From a virus: 64,000 bases of DNA. The translations under genes and the position numbers were made by a program. Below are positions 18,911 through 62,601 of the stretch, piece by piece. Within the stretch, counting starts at the first letter, position 1. Each line of letters opens with the position of its first letter. Location: positions 62,001 through 126,000 of IMG/VR virus record IMGVR_UViG_3300050821_003907. The stretch is one strand, 5' to 3'. The notes beneath the pieces were generated by a model. It saw only the letters and a list, made by a program, of their open reading frames with translations, was not told the DNA's origin and ran no database searches.

Positions 18911-19080
18911 TGGATGTTACGTCCCCACGTGTAAGCCCAGAAGCAGATGATTGCGTAAGGAATTCCTAGCAGTAGCCACCACCAGTCTTCAGTCCAGCCT
19001 GCGATGCCCGCCCCCAGAATCAGGAGGGCCACCGTGGACCAGACTATCAGGTGAGCTATAACGCCGTCAGATACTTTCAT
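18907..19080 (-). CDS. Small two-helix membrane protein
   Basis: This 57-residue protein starts at ATG 19080, preceded by AGGGGGAAT. Two hydrophobic helices (VIAHLIVWSTVALLILGAG and WWWLLLGIPYAIICFWAY) are separated by a short turn with Glu/Asp. The role is unknown; a membrane peptide inside a replication operon could tether factors or alter the host membrane. Confidence 0.6.
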   Translation of the reverse strand: MKVSDGVIAHLIVWSTVALLILGAGIAGWTEDWWWLLLGIPYAIICFWAYTWGRNIQ

Positions 19081-25484: not shown

Positions 25485-25643
25485 GGTGTGCTAAACGGTG
25501 TGCTGAAGGTGTGCTATGGCACACTTCAGGGTCAAGTGCTAGGTGTGCTGGAGTGTGTGCCATCCCACCCTTGTCTTTAGACAAGTGGTGGCACACCTTC
25601 AGCACAGCACACCTGGAACAGCACAAAAAGAAAAAAGCACACC
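25485..25643. repeat. GGTGTGCT direct/inverted repeat cluster, candidate replication origin
   Basis: GGTGTGCT occurs at 25485, 25497, 25508 and 25542 on the plus strand. Its complement AGCACACC occurs at 25606 and 25636, with near copies between. Larger dyads include CTGAAGGTGTGC/GCACACTTCAG around 25505-25529 and TTGTCT/AGACAA at 25571-25584 flanked by GTGCCA/TGGCAC. The 206-base gap between PrimPol-helicase and polymerase has no gene. Repeated dyads beside replication genes suggest an origin or a strong operator; this is inference. Confidence 0.55.
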
Positions 25644-36983: not shown

Positions 36984-37026
36984 GACAGCTGCTAGACTGT
37001 ATTAAAACGCCACTTTAGGAGCTGTC
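36984..37026 (+). promoter_or_regulatory. Inverted repeat masking the fibre start, with internal -10
   Basis: GACAGCT (36984-36990) pairs with AGCTGTC (37020-37026), which fills the space between AGGAG (37017-37021) and the GTG start at 37027. TGC-TAGACT, an extended -10, lies at 36990-36998 inside the loop. Transcripts from upstream could fold and hide the start, and transcripts starting near 37005 could not. The -35 is poor. The regulatory role is inferred. Confidence 0.5.
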
Positions 37027-39228
37027 GTGACTTACAACACCGTTACGCTGCAAGGCAACGTAATCTACACCAACGGTAGTGGTGACGTTGTCACGGTTAC
37101 GCTGATTCCTACGACATGGTATTACGACATCCCGAATGACACCATTGTCAATCCGCAGTCCCTTTCAGCTACGGCTAACTCTGCGGGTGCGTGGTCTATT
37201 GCCGGGATTATCGACCCGACACCTGACGGCTCAGGTATTCAGTGGACACTTACGGTCAAGGACGCTAACGGCACTACGGTGCTGTACAGTCAGCACGTGC
37301 AAATTGGGTACACTAACGGAGCCACGCAACAGTTCCTGGCGCTTGCCCCTTCGGTAGCTAATACCTCTTTGCTAACTGCCCTTCCCCTTCCGGCAGGCAC
37401 TGCCACAGCTGGGCAGGTTCCCCTTGCCGCAGGCAGTACATCTAATTCCACGTGGGGTAACAACACCGCATTCCTTAACGTCAAGACCATGTACGGTGCT
37501 AAGGGTGACACTAAGAATGTCACTGACGGGGCCATTACGGCCAGCAGCAAGACTCTCACTAGCGCTAGTGCTAACTTCACGTCAGCAGATGTTGGCAAGA
37601 CTGTCATAGTAGCGGGCGCAGGTGCATCAGGTAGTTTCACTACGCTAACCACGACTATCGCGGCTTATGTGTCTTCTACGTCTGTCACGCTTACCGCTGC
37701 TGCGACGAATACGGTTAGCAGTGCAGGCGTATGCTATGGTACTGATGATGTCAATGCTATCCAGAATGCAATTAATGACGCGCTGCTGGCAAGCGTGGGC
37801 ACCCCTAATAACACTAACGGCGCTACGGTTTACCTGCCGCCAGGCCGTTACCTGATAGCTAGCGCGGGCTTGCTTCCCGGTTACTACACCAGCGGGTCCA
37901 CAGTTGGCTACCCGGCTTCTACGGTTACCTTCCAGGGAGCTGACCTGTCCAGTACATCGCTAGTTGCGGGCAGTCAGTTCGTGTTTAACGGGATGATTGC
38001 GTATGGTCGCGGTGGTACGCACATCAACGTATGCCAGATGAATTTTTCAGACATCACGTTTGACGGTAACTGCGCTCAGGGCCTCGGGGGCGCACTGAAC
38101 ATTGACAATGCGGGTGGTGGCGGGCTTGTTGCACTGCCGTGGCCTGGCACGAGTGCCTACACAGGCGCAGGTCTCATAAACAATGTCCGTTCAGGCCGTT
38201 ACCACACGTTCATGCGCTGCAAGTTTTACCGGCCTACAGGCTACGGCTTCCAGCCGACAACAGGCATCAGGCTACTCGGTTGCGAGCTCATGAACATGGG
38301 GCAGTACAACACGGGAGCCGGTGGTTACGATAACCTGGGGTCGGGCCCGGCAGATGCTATTGTAATCGGCTGTAACTGGCACGATTCCAGCGGTAATTTT
38401 TGCGACTTCGTTTCAGGAACTCCCGGTGACTTCATCCGGATGATTATGATTGGCTGTACCAGCACTAACCACACCGCTGGAGGTGCCTGGGGCCTGGGCC
38501 AGGGGTCAGTATTCGTCGGCAACAGCCTGCAAAATAATACCGATGTAGGCTCTGCCGTGTTCTACGATGCGGGAACCGCAGCGGCAAACAGGAGCCGTAA
38601 TGTCGTTACGGGAAACGTGCTGGTTAACATGAACGGCACGGGAACCAATGCTTACGAAGCTTACTGGAACGGGCAGTACGGCGATATTTACACCGCAAAC
38701 TCCATCGGAGACGGCACGCTGGGCACTACTGTTCTTCTGGACAGCACGTCAGGCAATGTTAACAACCTTAACTACGAGCCAGCAGCACTTAATGCGTCTC
38801 TCACGAATGTGGCAATGCCAGGCGCAGGAGATGGTGTTTACACCAGGCTCACCACGTGGGGTAACTCTTCGAGCAGCGTCACGGTCAACATCGCTAACTC
38901 ATCAGGCAACATCTGCATTGCCTTGTATGCCCCGAACTCTACCGGAGGACCTGGTAACCGGATGGCCACTACGGGTTCGGTGGCTTCACCAGGAACAGGC
39001 TTGCAGACGATTAACTTTACCTCGACGGTTATACCCGGAGTAGGCTGGTGGATTGCCATTGCCGCCGATAATAACTCAGTTACATTCAAGGGCTTCGCCT
39101 CTAGTGCAGCTACTGCACCAGACGGGGACTCATATTGCTTCGCTGCTGCCAGCCAGATGCCGTTGCCTTCTACAGCTCCTGCCATTTCATCAGCTATAGC
39201 GCCGAACTTTGTGCTGTTGTCTGCGTAA
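37027..39228 (+). CDS. Tail fibre/spike with interrupted pectate-lyase-type beta-helix
   Basis: This 733-residue protein starts at GTG 37027. The N-terminal about 105 residues form a beta-sandwich adaptor (VTLQGNVIYTNGSGDVVTVT). The beta-helix entry splits the usual GDG-TDD motif: YGAKGDTKN and CYGTDDVNAIQNAIND are separated by about 80 residues of Thr-rich insert. Many rungs follow (IVIGCNWHDSSGNFCDF). A jelly-roll-like C-terminal domain begins near NASLTNVAMPGAGDG. It probably binds host surface glycan. Confidence 0.78.
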   Translation: MTYNTVTLQGNVIYTNGSGDVVTVTLIPTTWYYDIPNDTIVNPQSLSATANSAGAWSIAGIIDPTPDGSGIQWTLTVKDANGTTVLYSQHVQIGYTNGATQQFLALAPSVANTSLLTALPLPAGTATAGQVPLAAGSTSNSTWGNNTAFLNVKTMYGAKGDTKNVTDGAITASSKTLTSASANFTSADVGKTVIVAGAGASGSFTTLTTTIAAYVSSTSVTLTAAATNTVSSAGVCYGTDDVNAIQNAINDALLASVGTPNNTNGATVYLPPGRYLIASAGLLPGYYTSGSTVGYPASTVTFQGADLSSTSLVAGSQFVFNGMIAYGRGGTHINVCQMNFSDITFDGNCAQGLGGALNIDNAGGGGLVALPWPGTSAYTGAGLINNVRSGRYHTFMRCKFYRPTGYGFQPTTGIRLLGCELMNMGQYNTGAGGYDNLGSGPADAIVIGCNWHDSSGNFCDFVSGTPGDFIRMIMIGCTSTNHTAGGAWGLGQGSVFVGNSLQNNTDVGSAVFYDAGTAAANRSRNVVTGNVLVNMNGTGTNAYEAYWNGQYGDIYTANSIGDGTLGTTVLLDSTSGNVNNLNYEPAALNASLTNVAMPGAGDGVYTRLTTWGNSSSSVTVNIANSSGNICIALYAPNSTGGPGNRMATTGSVASPGTGLQTINFTSTVIPGVGWWIAIAADNNSVTFKGFASSAATAPDGDSYCFAAASQMPLPSTAPAISSAIAPNFVLLSA

Positions 39229-39231
39229 TAA

Positions 39232-39260
39232 TTGACACATTAACTCTTCGCATGTAAGCT
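39232..39260 (+). promoter_or_regulatory. Consensus-like sigma70 promoter
   Basis: TTGACA (39232-39237), a 17-base spacer and TAAGCT (39255-39260). The expected leader to ATG 39315 contains a small hairpin (CCTC-GG/CC-GAGG around 39275-39293) and GGAGGG before the start. It directs the 39315 gene and perhaps those downstream. Confidence 0.65.
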
Positions 39261-39314
39261 TTCACATACCACCTCGGGATGGACCTGAGGAGCAAGAACC
39301 CACGGAGGGTTATA

Positions 39315-40259
39315 ATGGCGCGAGCCGTCCCGCAGGTTGTACGGAAGTATGAGCAGGTTACCTATGAGCGTGAAGTGCTCGGTAATGAACCTGTCAAGGA
39401 ACATCGCGAACCCAAGCTCATCGATACCAAGATTGACGTCAATTTCTACCTGACTGAAGAAGAAGCCCAGCATCTTTATACCGCCCTGGAAATGGGCATT
39501 GATGCTATGGGTAAGGAAGTCAGGAATTATGGGACTCACCGGTCTATGGTGTTGCCTGGGCGTGAGCCGATTAGCTCCACCGCAGACTGGGATGGAGCAT
39601 TCAAGGCAGGCAAGTCTCTAGCAGACATTCTTTTTGACGCTCTCATCACAGCAGTGGAGCACCGGACGGTCGATGAGGAGCCGGAAGAGCCTAAGAAGAT
39701 ACCGGAAGACCTAATACTGTCTGAACTCCCATTCCGTTTGCTTGAATACTATGCTGGGCACCTAGGGCTAGGCGGTAATAGCAAGAACGGTCGAGAATTC
39801 CTTATCAGGGAAGCTGCTTTCGGACGTACCTTTATTGAAGACCACGTAGAAGAAGCAGAGACAGAGCTAGAATCACTAGGATTCCTGCAATGGGAAGTTG
39901 TACCTAACACACCTGAGGGTCTGATTCTTAAGGTCACTGATGCCGGGCGCGTGTTCTTGAAGGCATCTAAGGCGAATACAGTGAAGTCTTTTGCGCCTAT
40001 TAAGTGGAGGAATTACGACACTAATCTGCTAGGCGTAGGGCGTCCTGCGCACAAGGATTCCTGTACTGTCCAGGCTAATCACCACCTTCCTCATTGCGAG
40101 GCAGTAAATAAGTGTGATGCAAAAGCATGTACGTGTGCGGAGGCATTTCCGGAGCGTAATGTAGTGAAGTGGAAGGACCACACTGAGTGCTTTGAAGGCG
40201 GTGGCTGCTTTAAACTTACTCCTGAGCAGGAGAAGGCAGCAGTACACGACGATAAGTAG
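39315..40259 (+). CDS. Hypothetical protein with winged-helix-like middle and Cys-rich C-terminus
   Basis: The protein has 314 residues from ATG 39315 (GGAGGG upstream). It has a charged N-terminus (VRKYEQVTYEREVLGNEPVK) and a middle part (LPFRLLEYYAGHLGLGG ... EFLIREAAFGRTFIEDHVEEAETELESLGFLQWEVVPNTPEGLIL) that reads like a winged-helix regulator. The Cys/His-rich end (CTVQANHHLPHCEAVNKCDAKACTC) may bind metal. It is the first gene behind a strong promoter. The function is unknown; DNA binding is a possibility. Confidence 0.6.
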   Translation: MARAVPQVVRKYEQVTYEREVLGNEPVKEHREPKLIDTKIDVNFYLTEEEAQHLYTALEMGIDAMGKEVRNYGTHRSMVLPGREPISSTADWDGAFKAGKSLADILFDALITAVEHRTVDEEPEEPKKIPEDLILSELPFRLLEYYAGHLGLGGNSKNGREFLIREAAFGRTFIEDHVEEAETELESLGFLQWEVVPNTPEGLILKVTDAGRVFLKASKANTVKSFAPIKWRNYDTNLLGVGRPAHKDSCTVQANHHLPHCEAVNKCDAKACTCAEAFPERNVVKWKDHTECFEGGGCFKLTPEQEKAAVHDDK

Positions 40260-40267
40260 CAGACAAC

Positions 40268-40328
40268 TTACTCTCTCCCTTGTGGTAGACTCGGTCCTAG
40301 CTCATGAGGAGCACAAGGGAGAGAGTAA
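40268..40328 (+). promoter_or_regulatory. 17-bp perfect inverted repeat masking the ribosome-binding site, with internal promoter
   Basis: TTACTCTCTCCCTTGTG (40268-40284) pairs perfectly with CACAAGGGAGAGAGTAA (40312-40328). The right arm contains the AAGGGAGAGAG ribosome-binding site for ATG 40334. In the 27-base loop is TGG-TAGACT (40283-40291), an extended -10. Read-through RNA would form the 17-bp stem, and RNA begun near 40298 would lack the left arm. There is no T-tract, so it is not a normal terminator. The switch is inferred from the layout. Confidence 0.65.
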
Positions 40329-40333
40329 ACAAC

Positions 40334-40912
40334 ATGAAGAATATTATTGTCAACACGTCCGCTAATGGCATGGACCATGTCACGCAAGGTGACTTCTGGA
40401 AGACCACAGCCACCAATGGCGCAGGTCTCGTAGCAGATATCTTCAAGAACCCAGATAAGCTAATGGCTACCTTTGCACACGTGACTGCGGTTAAGTTTGA
40501 GGATGAGCCAGCTCTCGGCGGAGGCGGCGGTGGAGCTATTCCATGGAAGGCATGGGAAGCTTCGTACGAGTACAGGTCTAGTGTAGGCGCTGAAACTAAA
40601 ACTGAGCCAGTAGCGAGTCAAGTGCAGTCTCTTGAAGATGAATGCCGCATTATAGGACTACCTACGTGGCGACTAACCGCACTCCACGAGGGTAATCCTG
40701 TCGTTAATGTATATACCCGCGAAAGTTGTGCGTCAGGGAATATGCTACACGTAGCTACAATCGTCGTTAAACCGGATGATGAGTTTAACATCACAGAAAA
40801 CGCAACGGCTGCTGGTAGTGTGCTTCGGACACACTACACCGACTTCACCAAGTTGGTAGTGGACCTTCTTGACGCCGCCCAAGCTATCAAGGACGCCGGG
40901 AATACCGAGTAG
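40334..40912 (+). CDS. Hypothetical protein behind a hairpin-masked start
   Basis: The protein has 192 residues from ATG 40334; an in-frame ATG at 40304 has no ribosome-binding site. The sequence contains a glycine run (LGGGGGGAIPW) and two Cys. The rest looks alpha/beta (DDEFNITENATAAGSVLRTHY). I recognise no family. It is the only gene in the window flanked by long perfect inverted repeats on both sides (40268-40328 and 40934-41034). Confidence 0.6.
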   Translation: MKNIIVNTSANGMDHVTQGDFWKTTATNGAGLVADIFKNPDKLMATFAHVTAVKFEDEPALGGGGGGAIPWKAWEASYEYRSSVGAETKTEPVASQVQSLEDECRIIGLPTWRLTALHEGNPVVNVYTRESCASGNMLHVATIVVKPDDEFNITENATAAGSVLRTHYTDFTKLVVDLLDAAQAIKDAGNTE

Positions 40913-40933: not shown

Positions 40934-41034
40934 GCAGGCGGGAGCAGAGTTCTCCAGCGGTCAAGAGGGCCGTACCCGCGCCACGCGGGATTTGTTTCTT
41001 ACGGGAGAGTTGAACTAGCTCTGCTCCCGCCTGC
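40934..41034 (+). terminator. Terminator hairpin nested in a 16-bp inverted repeat
   Basis: The outer arms are GCAGGCGGGAGCAGAG (40934-40949) and CTCTGCTCCCGCCTGC (41019-41034), a perfect match. Inside is CCCGCG-CCA-CGCGGG (40975-40989) followed by ATTTGTTTC, an intrinsic terminator. The outer stem can be extended by a few pairs at GAGTTC/GAACT. The inner part is not a tRNA: the T-arm is absent and the base at position 33 is not T. Competition between outer and inner stems could tune read-through. Confidence 0.6.
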
Positions 41035-45647: not shown

Positions 45648-45685
45648 TAGTCATGCCTCGTTCAACGTTGAACGAGGCATGACTA
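45648..45685. repeat. 38-bp perfect palindrome containing the HNH start codon
   Basis: The left arm TAGTCATGCCTCGTTCAAC (45648-45666) is followed directly by its exact complement (45667-45685) with no loop. ATG 45679 lies inside the right arm. It follows the secreted-protein stop by five bases. There is no T-tract. It could terminate, act as an operator, or fold and hide the start of the endonuclease. Confidence 0.8.
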
Positions 45686-46347
45686 CTAAGTGGACGCCAC
45701 AAGAAGATAGGTATTTGGCTACGGCTGTCACGGTAGGCATGCATTCGTCTAAAATAGCTGAAAAGCTCGGGCGCACAAAAGCGGCTATACACCAGAGAAT
45801 GCAGACTAAAGGACTTAAGTCCACACTAACTTCAGGTTCGCGGCATTCTTCGGCTGTCCCTTACCAGTATAGTGCGAGCGATATAGTCGGTAATTTTGAG
45901 ATTATTAGTCCCTTGCGCCGTGGTAGCGGTGGACATATTTACCTTGTTAAAGATACTAGGTGTCACCATCAAGGTGAACTTTTGCACTTCACACGCAGAC
46001 CCCTTAATGGGCGCGTTAAGTTGTGCGAATGTCCCATACGGCTGCGTACTTCGTATGGATATCTTAAGTGGGTATGGCGGCTACCTTCAGGCAAGCTTAT
46101 TGAAGTTTTTGAGCACCGTATAGTGATGGAAGGTATTATCGGTAGAGAGCTACTGCCACATGAATCTGTTCACCACATAAACGGTGTTCGTGATGACAAT
46201 AGGCCAGAGAATTTGGAACTGTGGGTGGGTGCGGGAAGACAGCCTAGCGGAATCCGGGTCCTGGATTACGTAGCATGGCTACAGGATGAGCTGAAACGGT
46301 ACGAGGGAATACTTCTGACAAGCAACGAGTTATACTCGACGTCATGA
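45679..46347 (+). CDS. HNH homing-endonuclease-like protein, paralogue of the 14151 gene
   Basis: This 222-residue protein starts at ATG 45679 inside a 38-bp palindrome. The N-terminal helix-turn-helix is KWTPQEDRYLATAVTVG ... KLGRTKAAIHQRM. The C-terminal HNH domain is FEHRIVMEGIIGRELL, HESVHHINGVRDDNRPENLE. It has the same order of domains as the 14151 gene and a near-identical HNH core, but lacks the latter's Cys-rich middle. The stop overlaps the next ATG (ATGA). It is probably mobile. Confidence 0.85.
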   Translation: MTTKWTPQEDRYLATAVTVGMHSSKIAEKLGRTKAAIHQRMQTKGLKSTLTSGSRHSSAVPYQYSASDIVGNFEIISPLRRGSGGHIYLVKDTRCHHQGELLHFTRRPLNGRVKLCECPIRLRTSYGYLKWVWRLPSGKLIEVFEHRIVMEGIIGRELLPHESVHHINGVRDDNRPENLELWVGAGRQPSGIRVLDYVAWLQDELKRYEGILLTSNELYSTS

Positions 46348-47114: not shown

Positions 47115-47164
47115 CTAAGCACGGTATCCTTTGAGAGAGTACTCAACCCTGGAGGATACCGTGC
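47102..47164 (+). promoter_or_regulatory. Promoter inside a hairpin that masks the endolysin start
   Basis: TTCCCA (47102-47107), a 17-base spacer and TATCCT (47125-47130) form a promoter. GCACGGTATCCT (47119-47130) pairs with AGGATACCGTGC (47153-47164), which covers part of GGAGG and the whole GTG start (47161). An inner TTGAG/CTCAA stem adds to it. RNA from upstream can form the 12-bp stem, and RNA started near 47137 lacks the left arm. The same logic is known for T4 lysozyme e. Confidence 0.65.
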
Positions 47165-48234
47165 CTATTGCTCGCTCTCTTAAGACCCTCAAGACGAGGG
47201 TCGCCTCGGCATTCACGCCGCAGCTTGGCGCGCTCAAGGGCACGCCTGTCATCTACATGGAAGACGCTGTAACTGTAGGCGACCTTCAGCCGGGTTATCC
47301 TGCGTACGCTGGTTACTACAACGGCACTTACGCCAACCTGACGGCAATGCGCCAGCGCTTCCCGAATGCTTACATCGTGAGCGTGTCTCCGGACGGCGCT
47401 AACGGTTCCATGTGCATCGACATTGAGCCAGGTGACGCGGTCCCTGGTGATGCTCCCGGCTTCTGGCACAACGCCAGTCACGGCGGCGCAATCAAGCCGT
47501 GGTTCTACGGCAGTGCAAGCTGGACGCAGTCTATCGTCAATGCCCTCACCGCAGCAGGAATCCCGCGTTCTGCTTACTTCATCTGGTCTGCACACTACAT
47601 CGGCGCGCACATCTGCGGACCTGGAAGTTGTGGTTACCCGCAGGCAGACGCTACTCAGTACGGCAGTAACAACGCTTACGACACGTCTATAGTACCGACT
47701 TACATGGTCGGAACTGGACCGCTTCCGCCGCCGCAGGAGCCTACAATCAGTGAAGGCAGCACCGACAAGGCTGCTGTTGACAAGCTGCGCATTCTTCTTG
47801 ACTCGCACAACGCAAAGCTAGGCAACGCTGATGGTGGCCCGGATGTGTTTGGCCCTGTAGTACTAAAGGCTGTGGAAGAATTCCAGTCTGTCAATAAGCT
47901 GGCAGCTGATGGCGTTGTTGGCCCTGTCACCTGGGCAGCCCTGTTCAGCAAGAATTCTAAGCCCATCCCGGATGGTCCCCCGCCCGTACCTCCCACGCCT
48001 GCACCTAAGGCTCTCACAGTGGCTGAGGGCGTAACCGCTACGGTTTCCTGGGATGTAGTGCCGGGCGCTACGCAGTACGTACTGCTTGTTGCTCAGCAGA
48101 ATGGCAAGGTTTCGTCTTACACGGTGGACACGCCCGGTGCTGAGATATTCGTGAACCGTGGCTGGACATACAAGGTTACCGTTCGCGCTAATGTCAAGGG
48201 TTCCCTGATTGCTTACTACACCTTGGTAGTCTAA
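47161..48234 (+). CDS. Endolysin-like protein (glycoside-hydrolase-like domain plus peptidoglycan-binding domain)
   Basis: The protein has 357 residues from GTG 47161 (GGAGG five bases upstream). Residues about 35-185 resemble a GH25/DUF1906-type barrel: MCIDIEPGDAVPGD (C85, D87, E89), PWFYGSASW, IPRSAYFIWSAHY and DATQY. A peptidoglycan-binding domain follows (about 200-265, GGPDVFGPVVLKAVEEFQ ... DGVVGPVTWAALF). A C-terminal fibronectin-like module ends it. Peptidoglycan cleavage is inferred; no signal peptide is present, so a holin would be needed. Confidence 0.75.
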   Translation: MPIARSLKTLKTRVASAFTPQLGALKGTPVIYMEDAVTVGDLQPGYPAYAGYYNGTYANLTAMRQRFPNAYIVSVSPDGANGSMCIDIEPGDAVPGDAPGFWHNASHGGAIKPWFYGSASWTQSIVNALTAAGIPRSAYFIWSAHYIGAHICGPGSCGYPQADATQYGSNNAYDTSIVPTYMVGTGPLPPPQEPTISEGSTDKAAVDKLRILLDSHNAKLGNADGGPDVFGPVVLKAVEEFQSVNKLAADGVVGPVTWAALFSKNSKPIPDGPPPVPPTPAPKALTVAEGVTATVSWDVVPGATQYVLLVAQQNGKVSSYTVDTPGAEIFVNRGWTYKVTVRANVKGSLIAYYTLVV

Positions 48235-51994: not shown

Positions 51995-52178
51995 CCAGGA
52001 CGGCAAGCTGAAGCTAGCCGGACGCTATCTCGCCACTAACGAGAAGTACGAGCAGTTCGTGACTGACGATGTTGATGAGCTGCACGAGTGGGTGAACGCA
52101 CAGCAGGGTCCGTGCCACATGCAAGACATCGGATTCTACCTAGGCCCTATCCTAGAGGACATGAACCGTGAACGTTGA
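51984..52178 (+). CDS. 64-residue hypothetical protein
   Basis: The start is ATG 51984, overlapping the previous gene. The product (MIYNQDGKLKLAGRYLATNE ...) is acidic and ends NRER; the next gene begins inside it. No family is recognised. Confidence 0.5.
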   Translation: MIYNQDGKLKLAGRYLATNEKYEQFVTDDVDELHEWVNAQQGPCHMQDIGFYLGPILEDMNRER

Positions 52179-53556
52179 GCACATAGGCCACGCCGGTTTC
52201 ATCGTCACGTCAGGTGACAAGAAGCTAGTATGCGACCCGTGGTTTAACCCTGCGTTCCTTAAATCCTGGTTTCCGTGGCCTGATAACAGGCACCACATGG
52301 ACGCAGCGCGCACCGCTGACGCCTTGTACATCTCGCATGCACATGAGGACCACTTCGACCGTGAGTTCCTGAAGACGATGCCTGACAAGGGCATTGAGGT
52401 GCTGGTTCCCAGGTTCAGGTCTAGCTATCTTACTAAGGAAATCAAGGAGCTAGGCTTCATTAACGTCCACGAAATGGTCCACGGTTCTACGTACTGGCTG
52501 TTCAAGAACCTTGACGTGAAGATGCTCATTGACCAGTCACACAAGGAAGACTCTGCCCTTCTGTGTGAGGACCTTGAAACAGGTTATCGTTTTCTGAATA
52601 GCAACGATTGCGAGCTAGCTGCAAATGACTGGCCGCAGGACATAGACCTCCTGGCTGCTCAGTATTCTGGGGCGTTCTGGTATCCTCACTGCTATGATTA
52701 CACGCAGTCCCAGCAGGTTGCCAAGGCAAAGGAAGTCGTCAAGAACAATATCGACAGGCTTTGCCGTCGAATCAAGCTCACGGGCGCTAAGAAGTACTTG
52801 CCATCGGCTGGACCAGCTGTATTCCTGGACCCTGAACTGCGGCACTATAACTTCAGCGGTATCTTTCCTCAGTTTGTTGATGTAGAAGAGGAAATTGAGC
52901 GGCAATGCCCGGACATTACATTTCACAGCGCTATGCACGGCGGAATTTACTTCTTTGCTGATTACCTCCATGACCGGCGTCATGAGTGGCAGTCCTGGTT
53001 TTACGAAGACTATGCTCCGGCTGAATCTCACGAACTGGCAGCACATTTCCGTAATCTTGAGCGGACTAACAGCGTGTTCCTGCAAGATTATCGCACCGAC
53101 CTGGCTATCTACTCCGGACGAGATGACTGGCAGGTACAGCTAGGCGTGGTGAAGGGTGAGCTTGAGGAAAGCTTTGACCCGCACTATTTCATGAACGTGC
53201 CACCGCGTGTGCTGCGAGCTGTGCTGGACGGACGGGCTACGTGGGAGACGGCGCTGCTGTCCAATCGCATTAAGCTCAAGCGCAACCCTGATAAGTACGA
53301 TTATAAGCTCATGGGACTGCTTAGCTTCGGAGACCGGCCTGCTCAGACTCGTGCCATGCACCGAGCGCAGCGGGCTAGCGAGACCATTACCCGCGACGGC
53401 CTTATCCTGCCCAGGTATTGCCCCCATGCTGGGGAGGATTTGTCTATCGCAACTATCTGCGATGGTGTTATTGAATGCCCTCGGCATAACTGGTCTTGGA
53501 CAACCTCAGGTGAATGTATTACCGCGCAAATTCCCATTGAGGTGAGAAAAGCATAG
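52168..53556 (+). CDS. Metallo-beta-lactamase-fold protein with C-terminal Rieske [2Fe-2S] domain (CMAH-like)
   Basis: This 462-residue protein starts at GTG 52168 (GAGGA upstream). The UlaG-type metallo-beta-lactamase domain has HIGHAGF and ISHAHEDHFD (H57, H59, D61, H62), LNSNDCEL and YSGAFWYPHCYDY. The C-terminal Rieske motif is YCPHAG (C418, H420) and CPRHNW (C437, H440). Vertebrate CMP-Neu5Ac hydroxylase (CMAH) fuses the same two domains in the opposite order. A redox enzyme acting on a nucleotide-sugar or a DNA-base derivative is possible. The substrate is unknown. No partner reductase is nearby. Confidence 0.75.
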   Translation: MNVEHIGHAGFIVTSGDKKLVCDPWFNPAFLKSWFPWPDNRHHMDAARTADALYISHAHEDHFDREFLKTMPDKGIEVLVPRFRSSYLTKEIKELGFINVHEMVHGSTYWLFKNLDVKMLIDQSHKEDSALLCEDLETGYRFLNSNDCELAANDWPQDIDLLAAQYSGAFWYPHCYDYTQSQQVAKAKEVVKNNIDRLCRRIKLTGAKKYLPSAGPAVFLDPELRHYNFSGIFPQFVDVEEEIERQCPDITFHSAMHGGIYFFADYLHDRRHEWQSWFYEDYAPAESHELAAHFRNLERTNSVFLQDYRTDLAIYSGRDDWQVQLGVVKGELEESFDPHYFMNVPPRVLRAVLDGRATWETALLSNRIKLKRNPDKYDYKLMGLLSFGDRPAQTRAMHRAQRASETITRDGLILPRYCPHAGEDLSIATICDGVIECPRHNWSWTTSGECITAQIPIEVRKA

Positions 53557-61480: not shown

Positions 61481-61646
61481 CTTTACGAGACTCCTGTCGT
61501 GCTCGCTCGATTACCTTGAGGGACAGTTCCGGGAACAGTTTGTCACCCTTGTGGAACAGTTCCATGTCAAGGTAACGTTCGAATGCTTTAAGCGCATTAC
61601 GGTAGAGGACCGGATTAGCGTCCCCTGCTGACTGGTTCTTGCTCAT
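61473..61646 (-). CDS. 57-residue helical protein
   Basis: ATG 61646 has AGGA upstream (GTGGAGGACCGG). The product (MSKNQSAGDANPVLYRNALK ...) is helical and ends RQESRKDV. The next gene overlaps by eight bases. No family is recognised. Confidence 0.5.
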   Translation of the reverse strand: MSKNQSAGDANPVLYRNALKAFERYLDMELFHKGDKLFPELSLKVIERARQESRKDV

Positions 61647-61668: not shown

Positions 61669-62601
61669 CTACTTACTGGGAATTACGATTCCGCTGCTGC
61701 TACCTGGCCAGCAAGAGAACCCGGCAGGCGGGTTAAGCTGACCATCAGAGATGGCGTTCATGCACTGCTGCACTAGCACCAGCGGGTTATTGGCGACAGA
61801 CTGCTCGATGATGTTGTTCGCCTTGGCTTGCGCCTGGGCAGTCTTCTCTGACTGCTGTGCGACATCAGTCTTAGCCGTCTGGGCCAGCACTGTGTTGATG
61901 CGATTCCGGACGGTCTGGTCGTACGTCAGCGGCTCAACGATGAGCGTGTCAATATGCACATCATTGCCGATGCGGGCAGTCAGCGCGCTGGCAACCTCAG
62001 CCGATAGCTGAGCCGTGCTCGGGTTGCCGGGCGTTCCCGGTGCCGCATTGGTGGCGAGCAGCTTAATGGGGTCGTACCCATCATAGACGCTGTTCATCGC
62101 GACGTTCAGTTCCGGCTGAACCAAAGCCGTAGCCACGTTAGCGGTGTTGCCCTTGTACGCACGGAACAGGGTGTCCGTCGCGCTCGGGACTAGCTGCCAG
62201 CGGAGCTTGACGTCTGCCTGAGCAGTCTGCTGCCCGGCAACGCGGACAGTAAGCGTGTAGTTCATGTTCTGGACGCTCTCGTCCATTAGTGACATGTTCT
62301 CCCACGGGGCAATCCAGTGAGGACCAGGGCCGTCGTAGCTAAGTACCTTCCCGAAGGAAGTTGTCACGCCGATATCGTAGGTTCCCACTGCATTGAACGA
62401 GCTGACAGCCAGCATGATGGCCGCCATGACACCAGCGAACGCGCCGATGCCTGTAGCCCAGTAGCCGATGAAGCGCATGTCTTGCGCATCAGTCGGATGC
62501 GTGTTGGGAGAAGCTGCGCCCTTCCGCAAGAGGACGGTTGTGATTACCATCGCAACCAGGAGTGCTGCGAAGAGAATCGCAAGGATGAAAGTGACAGGCA
62601 C
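61669..62601 (-). CDS. SPFH/band 7 membrane protein
   Basis: This 310-residue protein has two N-terminal hydrophobic helices (residues 3-25 and 47-69). The SPFH/prohibitin domain follows (TYDIGVTTSFGKVLSYDGPG PHWIAPWE ... RWQLVPSATDTLFRAYKG) with a helical stalk (AQAQAKANNIIEQSVANNPL). Band 7 proteins organise membrane microdomains and bind proteases. A phage copy could protect or remodel the host membrane, or scaffold exclusion. No signal for secretion beyond the helices. Confidence 0.85.
   Translation of the reverse strand: MPVTFILAILFAALLVAMVITTVLLRKGAASPNTHPTDAQDMRFIGYWATGIGAFAGVMAAIMLAVSSFNAVGTYDIGVTTSFGKVLSYDGPGPHWIAPWENMSLMDESVQNMNYTLTVRVAGQQTAQADVKLRWQLVPSATDTLFRAYKGNTANVATALVQPELNVAMNSVYDGYDPIKLLATNAAPGTPGNPSTAQLSAEVASALTARIGNDVHIDTLIVEPLTYDQTVRNRINTVLAQTAKTDVAQQSEKTAQAQAKANNIIEQSVANNPLVLVQQCMNAISDGQLNPPAGFSCWPGSSSGIVIPSK

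Follow-up and report, generated by a model that had tools for sequence, protein, structure and literature searches.

A proposed start-occluding hairpin with a promoter-like motif in its loop in a probable actinobacterial phage

We propose that a perfect 17-bp hairpin (hairpin A) lying before a gene of an uncultured phage is probably an RNA switch that occludes the translation start, and is set by where the transcript begins. We infer its transcription, repression and role from the sequence and from modelled folding. RNA reading in from the upstream genes would contain both arms and close the start, while RNA begun at a putative promoter at the entry to the loop would lack the left arm and leave it open. 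The hairpin and the promoter-like motif are kept in a close relative in which the neighbouring gene has been replaced, and thus this looks like a real on/off arrangement.

Results

The window, a 64-kb stretch, runs from base 62001 to base 126000 of a virus record 181,160 bases long. The ribonucleotide reductase and DNA polymerase of the phage are nearest to those of actinobacterial phages, at <60% identity, and this is probably an uncultured phage of actinobacteria. All comparison is between two genomes, this phage and the one close relative found in the collections searched (IMGVR_UViG_3300021404_000005), the reductases of which are 97% identical. Elsewhere in the genome 34 tRNA genes are arrayed in <5 kb (L003 9332-14058), and a 16-bp perfect inverted repeat with nested repeats lies between the primase and DNA polymerase genes (25499-25606). 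The gene at 52168-53556 encodes a protein that combines metallo-beta-lactamase-like and Rieske iron-sulphur domains. Record positions 18,994-19,075 (L003, minus strand) match tmRNA over 82 nt (Rfam RF00023, E 1.9e-23). The match comprises the tRNA-like domain without the mRNA-like part and is preceded by TGATAAACT; the first 20 kb of the relative, which correspond to this region, gave no tmRNA match. The element may have persisted as a tRNA-like relic or may serve as a decoy.

An earlier note had described perfect 17-bp arms at this position, of which the right carries the ribosome-binding site for ATG 40334. Both arms are exactly where it placed them, forming 17 of 17 pairs (100% complementary) around a 27-nt loop, and AAGGGAG is located within the right arm, ~12 nt upstream of the ATG when counted from GGAG. 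The coordinates of this and related features are collected in Table 1. Stems of at least 17 bp occur twice in the window, against none in 100 dinucleotide shuffles, where the longest stem was 14 bp. Searches for a second copy of the arm found none in the window with three or fewer mismatches allowed, and none in the whole record with two or fewer. There is no match of hairpin A to an Rfam family at gathering score, and weak miRNA matches to the region were rejected as being at the level of chance.

Table 1. Positions of hairpin A, the adjoining genes and other stems over translation starts. Positions are those of the window except for the last row.
Feature	Position	Strand	Remarks
Hairpin A, left arm	40268..40284	+	TTACTCTCTCCCTTGTG; core 14/14 identical in relative, foot changed together with right arm
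Hairpin A, right arm	40312..40328	+	CACAAGGGAGAGAGTAA; carries ribosome-binding site
Hairpin A, loop	40285..40311	+	27 nt, 26 identical in relative; contains AUG (40304)
Shine-Dalgarno region	40316..40323	+	AAGGGAGA; by inspection
Extended -10 promoter-like motif	40283..40291	+	TGGTAGACT (TGCTAGACT in relative)
Predicted transcript start of short, open RNA	40298..40300	+	from spacing to -10; openness predicted
Controlled gene (putative), 192 aa	40334..40912	+	no known family; ~50% identical protein in one relative
Upstream gene, presumed source of read-through RNA	39315..40259	+	largely replaced in relative
Stem P, over AGGAG before GTG 37027 (tail-spike-like gene)	36984..37026	+	TGCTAGACT inside (36990-36998)
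Stem D, 19-bp perfect palindrome over ATG 45679 (HNH gene)	45648..45685	+	
Stem E, GGAGG and GTG 47161 in right arm	47116..47167	+	TATCCT ends left arm; arms identical in relative
L005 stem, start in left arm	L005 11470-11542		18-21 bp; Shine-Dalgarno sequence and ATG buried from within gene

RNA spanning 40200-40400 is predicted to fold at -71.5 kcal/mol (z -4.8 relative to shuffles). When the bases before 40298 are removed, a check that the earlier note had suggested, the structure of hairpin A vanishes and z becomes +0.2. We also calculated the predicted energy required to free the start region (40316-40336) as a function of the position of the RNA 5′ end. RNAs that begin at or before 40268 need 18-21 kcal/mol and those that begin within the left arm or the early part of the loop 5-7 kcal/mol, and 3.4 kcal/mol suffices for those that begin at 40298-40300. 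Thus modelling agrees with the suggestion that long RNA would be closed and loop-promoter RNA open, the predicted cost falling from ~20 to ~3 kcal/mol. In the relative the corresponding values are 21-25 for the long RNA and 0.7 for RNA from the loop promoter. Among the 352 predicted starts of the phage that at 40334 ranks tenth, with a cost of 19.7 compared with a median of 9.4.

The flanked gene had been said to be of unknown function, and indeed its product matches no known family. Searches of phage, viral and genome collections returned no homolog beyond that in the single relative, and the predicted structure of the protein is unusable (pLDDT 42). The ATG in the loop was rejected as the start of this gene; it is in frame here, but out of frame in the relative, where the homologous protein begins at a GTG matching ATG 40334. 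The latter is therefore taken as the conserved start. Since the loop AUG is in frame here and is not buried, some translation of the long RNA might nevertheless bypass the stem. At 40934-41034 a 16-bp perfect stem closes a conserved, structured, tRNA-like-looking element containing a nested terminator-like stem; one pair is changed on both sides in the relative, and there is no tRNA call in this segment.

The genes upstream of hairpin A are co-directional with it, and the interval 39200-40268 shows no strong terminator. They look like late tail genes. Tail-spike-like genes, with a copy of the motif at 36990, lie upstream, and late read-through RNA is therefore plausible.

The relative has a hairpin A with a perfect 21-bp stem. 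The cores of the arms are identical at 28 of 28 positions and the loop at 26 of 27, compared with 38% identity in the tail of the upstream gene and ~55% in the coding sequence. Since the upstream gene is largely replaced, the hairpin, the promoter motif and the gene appear to move as a unit. At the foot of the stem two pairs have changed on both sides with pairing kept, and within hairpin A itself the two genomes contain no G-U change of the kind that would separate RNA pairing from DNA symmetry.

The putative promoter is the extended -10 sequence TGG-TAGACT, which the earlier note had placed beside the left arm. It is present there, its TG being the final two bases of the arm, it is conserved in the relative, and it belongs to a recurrent motif, TGNTANACT. 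This is rare, with 12 copies in 362 kb (both strands) of this genome and 8 in the relative, and it is found at the loop entry of hairpin A in both phages. From these counts the chance of one copy in this loop on this strand is ~1e-3. Four sites are at matching places in the two genomes. For several copies an ATG or GTG follows after 6-7 nt, a spacing like that of leaderless RNA; others precede starts with a Shine-Dalgarno sequence. There is no -35 element here, and a -35-based promoter scan was empty on this strand. Between genes TGNTANNNT, the general motif, shows barely any enrichment, whereas TGNTANACT is enriched; since the latter was narrowed after the data had been seen, its intergenic enrichment is suggestive, and conservation at matching sites in the relative gives the better support. 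An unsupervised search for hexamers before starts returned chiefly Shine-Dalgarno words; TAAACT and TAGACT showed weak enrichment. Taken as sequence patterns, the recurrence and conservation of TGNTANACT are evidence for a putative loop promoter. No sigma factor of family Sigma70_r2 (PF04542) was found in the phage.

How general are such stems in this phage? About ten long stems lie on starts, some of which are kept by compensatory or G-U changes. Starts fall within stems of at least 14 bp in 7 of 363 cases against 0.7 expected at shifted positions, a count based on crude gene calls in which two of the seven are doubtful and for which the excess is weak in the relative. Besides hairpin A, two start stems have a TGNTANACT-type motif, one of them in the relative only. 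The relative retains stem P, in which one A-U pair has become G-U. The junction corresponding to stem D there has a different perfect hairpin, with TGCTATACT-N7-ATG inside, for which the predicted opening cost is 26 on the long RNA compared with 0.1 on RNA starting at the ATG. The HNH endonuclease gene (45679-46347) is present here and absent from the relative; its position coincides exactly with the start-site hairpin and ATG of the following gene, as though it had been inserted there. The 18-bp stem at L005 11470 has two compensatory and two G-U changes in the relative, and start stems at L004 11104, L004 11430, L007 1089 and window position 61605 are also kept; no counterpart in the relative was found for the hairpin at L008 3330-3418. 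The sister stems differ in sequence from hairpin A and from each other. Where the blocking arm is inside the gene, as at L005 11470, a loop promoter cannot free the start and so a second mechanism must exist. The start stems of this phage thus follow more than one logic.

Discussion

As we envisage the switch, RNA from the upstream genes would contain both arms and form the 17-bp stem (21 bp in the relative), burying the Shine-Dalgarno sequence so that the gene at 40334 would be hardly translated. RNA polymerase beginning at the extended -10 in the loop would make RNA without the left arm, and the start site would therefore be open. The gene would then be expressed from its own promoter alone, whatever gene sits upstream. 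We count in favour of this a stem far beyond chance, the paired changes, the predicted opening costs, the recurrence of the motif and the precedent in T4, together with the sister layouts at 36984 and in hairpin D of the relative. The interpretation given in the earlier note is, at every point that can be tested on sequence and modelled folds, supported as a whole.

The arms might instead be an inverted repeat in the DNA, two half-sites for a repressor or other protein that flank the -10 and control transcription of the gene at 40334, with the RNA stem a by-product. In favour, the repeat brackets a promoter-like motif, strict conservation is seen in the repeat cores, and the symmetric changes at the foot would preserve a DNA repeat equally. 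Yet the usual operator half-sites are far shorter than 17-21 perfect bp, and the arm falls exactly over the Shine-Dalgarno sequence. The sequence of the arm is unique in the genome, on which ground a repeated operator was rejected. At junction D the sequence has changed wholly with a hairpin retained, and the G-U changes in sister stems preserve RNA pairing but break DNA symmetry. We therefore regard an operator as unlikely.

A processing site is distinctly unlikely as the whole explanation. Here RNase III or a similar enzyme would cleave the stem in read-through RNA and leave a stable message downstream, its start exposed (or destroyed). Double-strand RNases could plausibly act on perfect stems of 17-21 bp, and the present stem lies between genes; however, the conserved extended -10 and loop would be left unexplained, as would the position of the arm on the ribosome-binding site, both here and in the sister genes. 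Such processing is compatible with the proposed switch, and the two could operate together.

It is very unlikely that ribosomes ending translation of the upstream gene open the stem, making a promoter unnecessary. The upstream stop codon (40257-40259) is 8 nt before the left arm, but the reach of a terminating ribosome would be limited to the first few bases of a 17-bp stem. Moreover, most of the upstream gene has been replaced in the relative, where by inspection just a 24-codon frame ends ~10 nt before the stem, and the conserved loop would have no explanation. That the hairpin is the transcription terminator of the upstream gene is scarcely credible and was rejected: there is a stable stem soon after the stop codon, but no T run follows either arm, a 27-nt loop would be unusual, and the terminator scan gave a single candidate nearby, at 40975, and none at hairpin A.

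Returning to the start-occluding switch, the direction of any delay, with the start closed early and open late, is borrowed by analogy from T4. Since the upstream genes resemble late tail genes and the promoter resembles a host-type one, the time order may be the reverse. If a host sigma factor reads the loop promoter, the gene at 40334 could be expressed early and be silent on late RNA.

More tentatively, it is possible that this phage group uses promoters within hairpins as a general device, a kind of translational insulator. A gene whose start-covering hairpin contained a host-type or leaderless promoter of its own would be silent on read-through RNA, and such genes might be swapped as cassettes without leaking. 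The extreme form would be hairpin D of the relative, where the start codon would also be the transcript start, so that long RNA would be closed and short RNA leaderless.

The promoter-like motif resembles those of mycobacteria, which rest on TANNNT without a -35 element and are made more active by TGN (PMC3898074). The phage motif is likewise an extended -10 without a -35, comparable to the extended TGNTANNNT promoters, and its copies 6-7 nt before ATG or GTG are like mycobacterial leaderless starts (PMC3898074). In contrast to TGNTANNNT the phage form is narrower and is sometimes inside a start hairpin, and the consensus is a mycobacterial one that may not be that of the host.

Among actinobacterial phages, the SAS/ESAS elements of cluster K mycobacteriophages include 17-bp inverted repeats just before many translation starts (PMC3203893), similar in length and position to those found here. 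They differ in having one consensus per subcluster, spacers of 4-13 bp, and repeats that lie upstream of the 13-bp GGGATAGGAGCCC. No such combination of GGGATAGGAGCCC with 17-bp repeats shared by many starts is found in this phage; the stems here differ in sequence from one another, and the start signal lies within the arm.

A close parallel is in T4. Genes e, soc, 49 and I-TevI, and likewise T4 segB and Aeh1 mobE, have hairpins that sequester the start and are associated with a late promoter in or close to the left strand (PMC3014915, PMC2988022), and for gene e and I-TevI read-through RNA is closed and promoter RNA open (PMC3014915, PMC2988022). The earlier note had likened the present arrangement to those of e and I-TevI, and as a likeness in type of mechanism the analogy is supported, the sister genes sharing the layout. 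Folding predicts that the start signal is sequestered in a stem on upstream RNA, and a conserved extended -10 at the loop entry, with no -35, may give RNA without the 5′ strand. Unlike T4, the phage group and the controlled gene are unrelated, and in place of the T4 late promoter TATAAATA, which is not present, there is the host-type TGNTANACT (TAGACT preceded by TGG). The likeness in mechanism is unaffected by this, but the case for placing hairpin A within the T4 set is weakened. If our reading is correct, a T4-style start-occlusion switch has arisen anew in a phage group that is unrelated to T4 and probably actinobacterial, where it uses another type of promoter and is a recurrent device. 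It would also provide a rule for phage genomes, that where a long stem covers a start and has a -10 in its loop, the gene ignores read-through RNA, and guesses of its timing based on operons would therefore fail.
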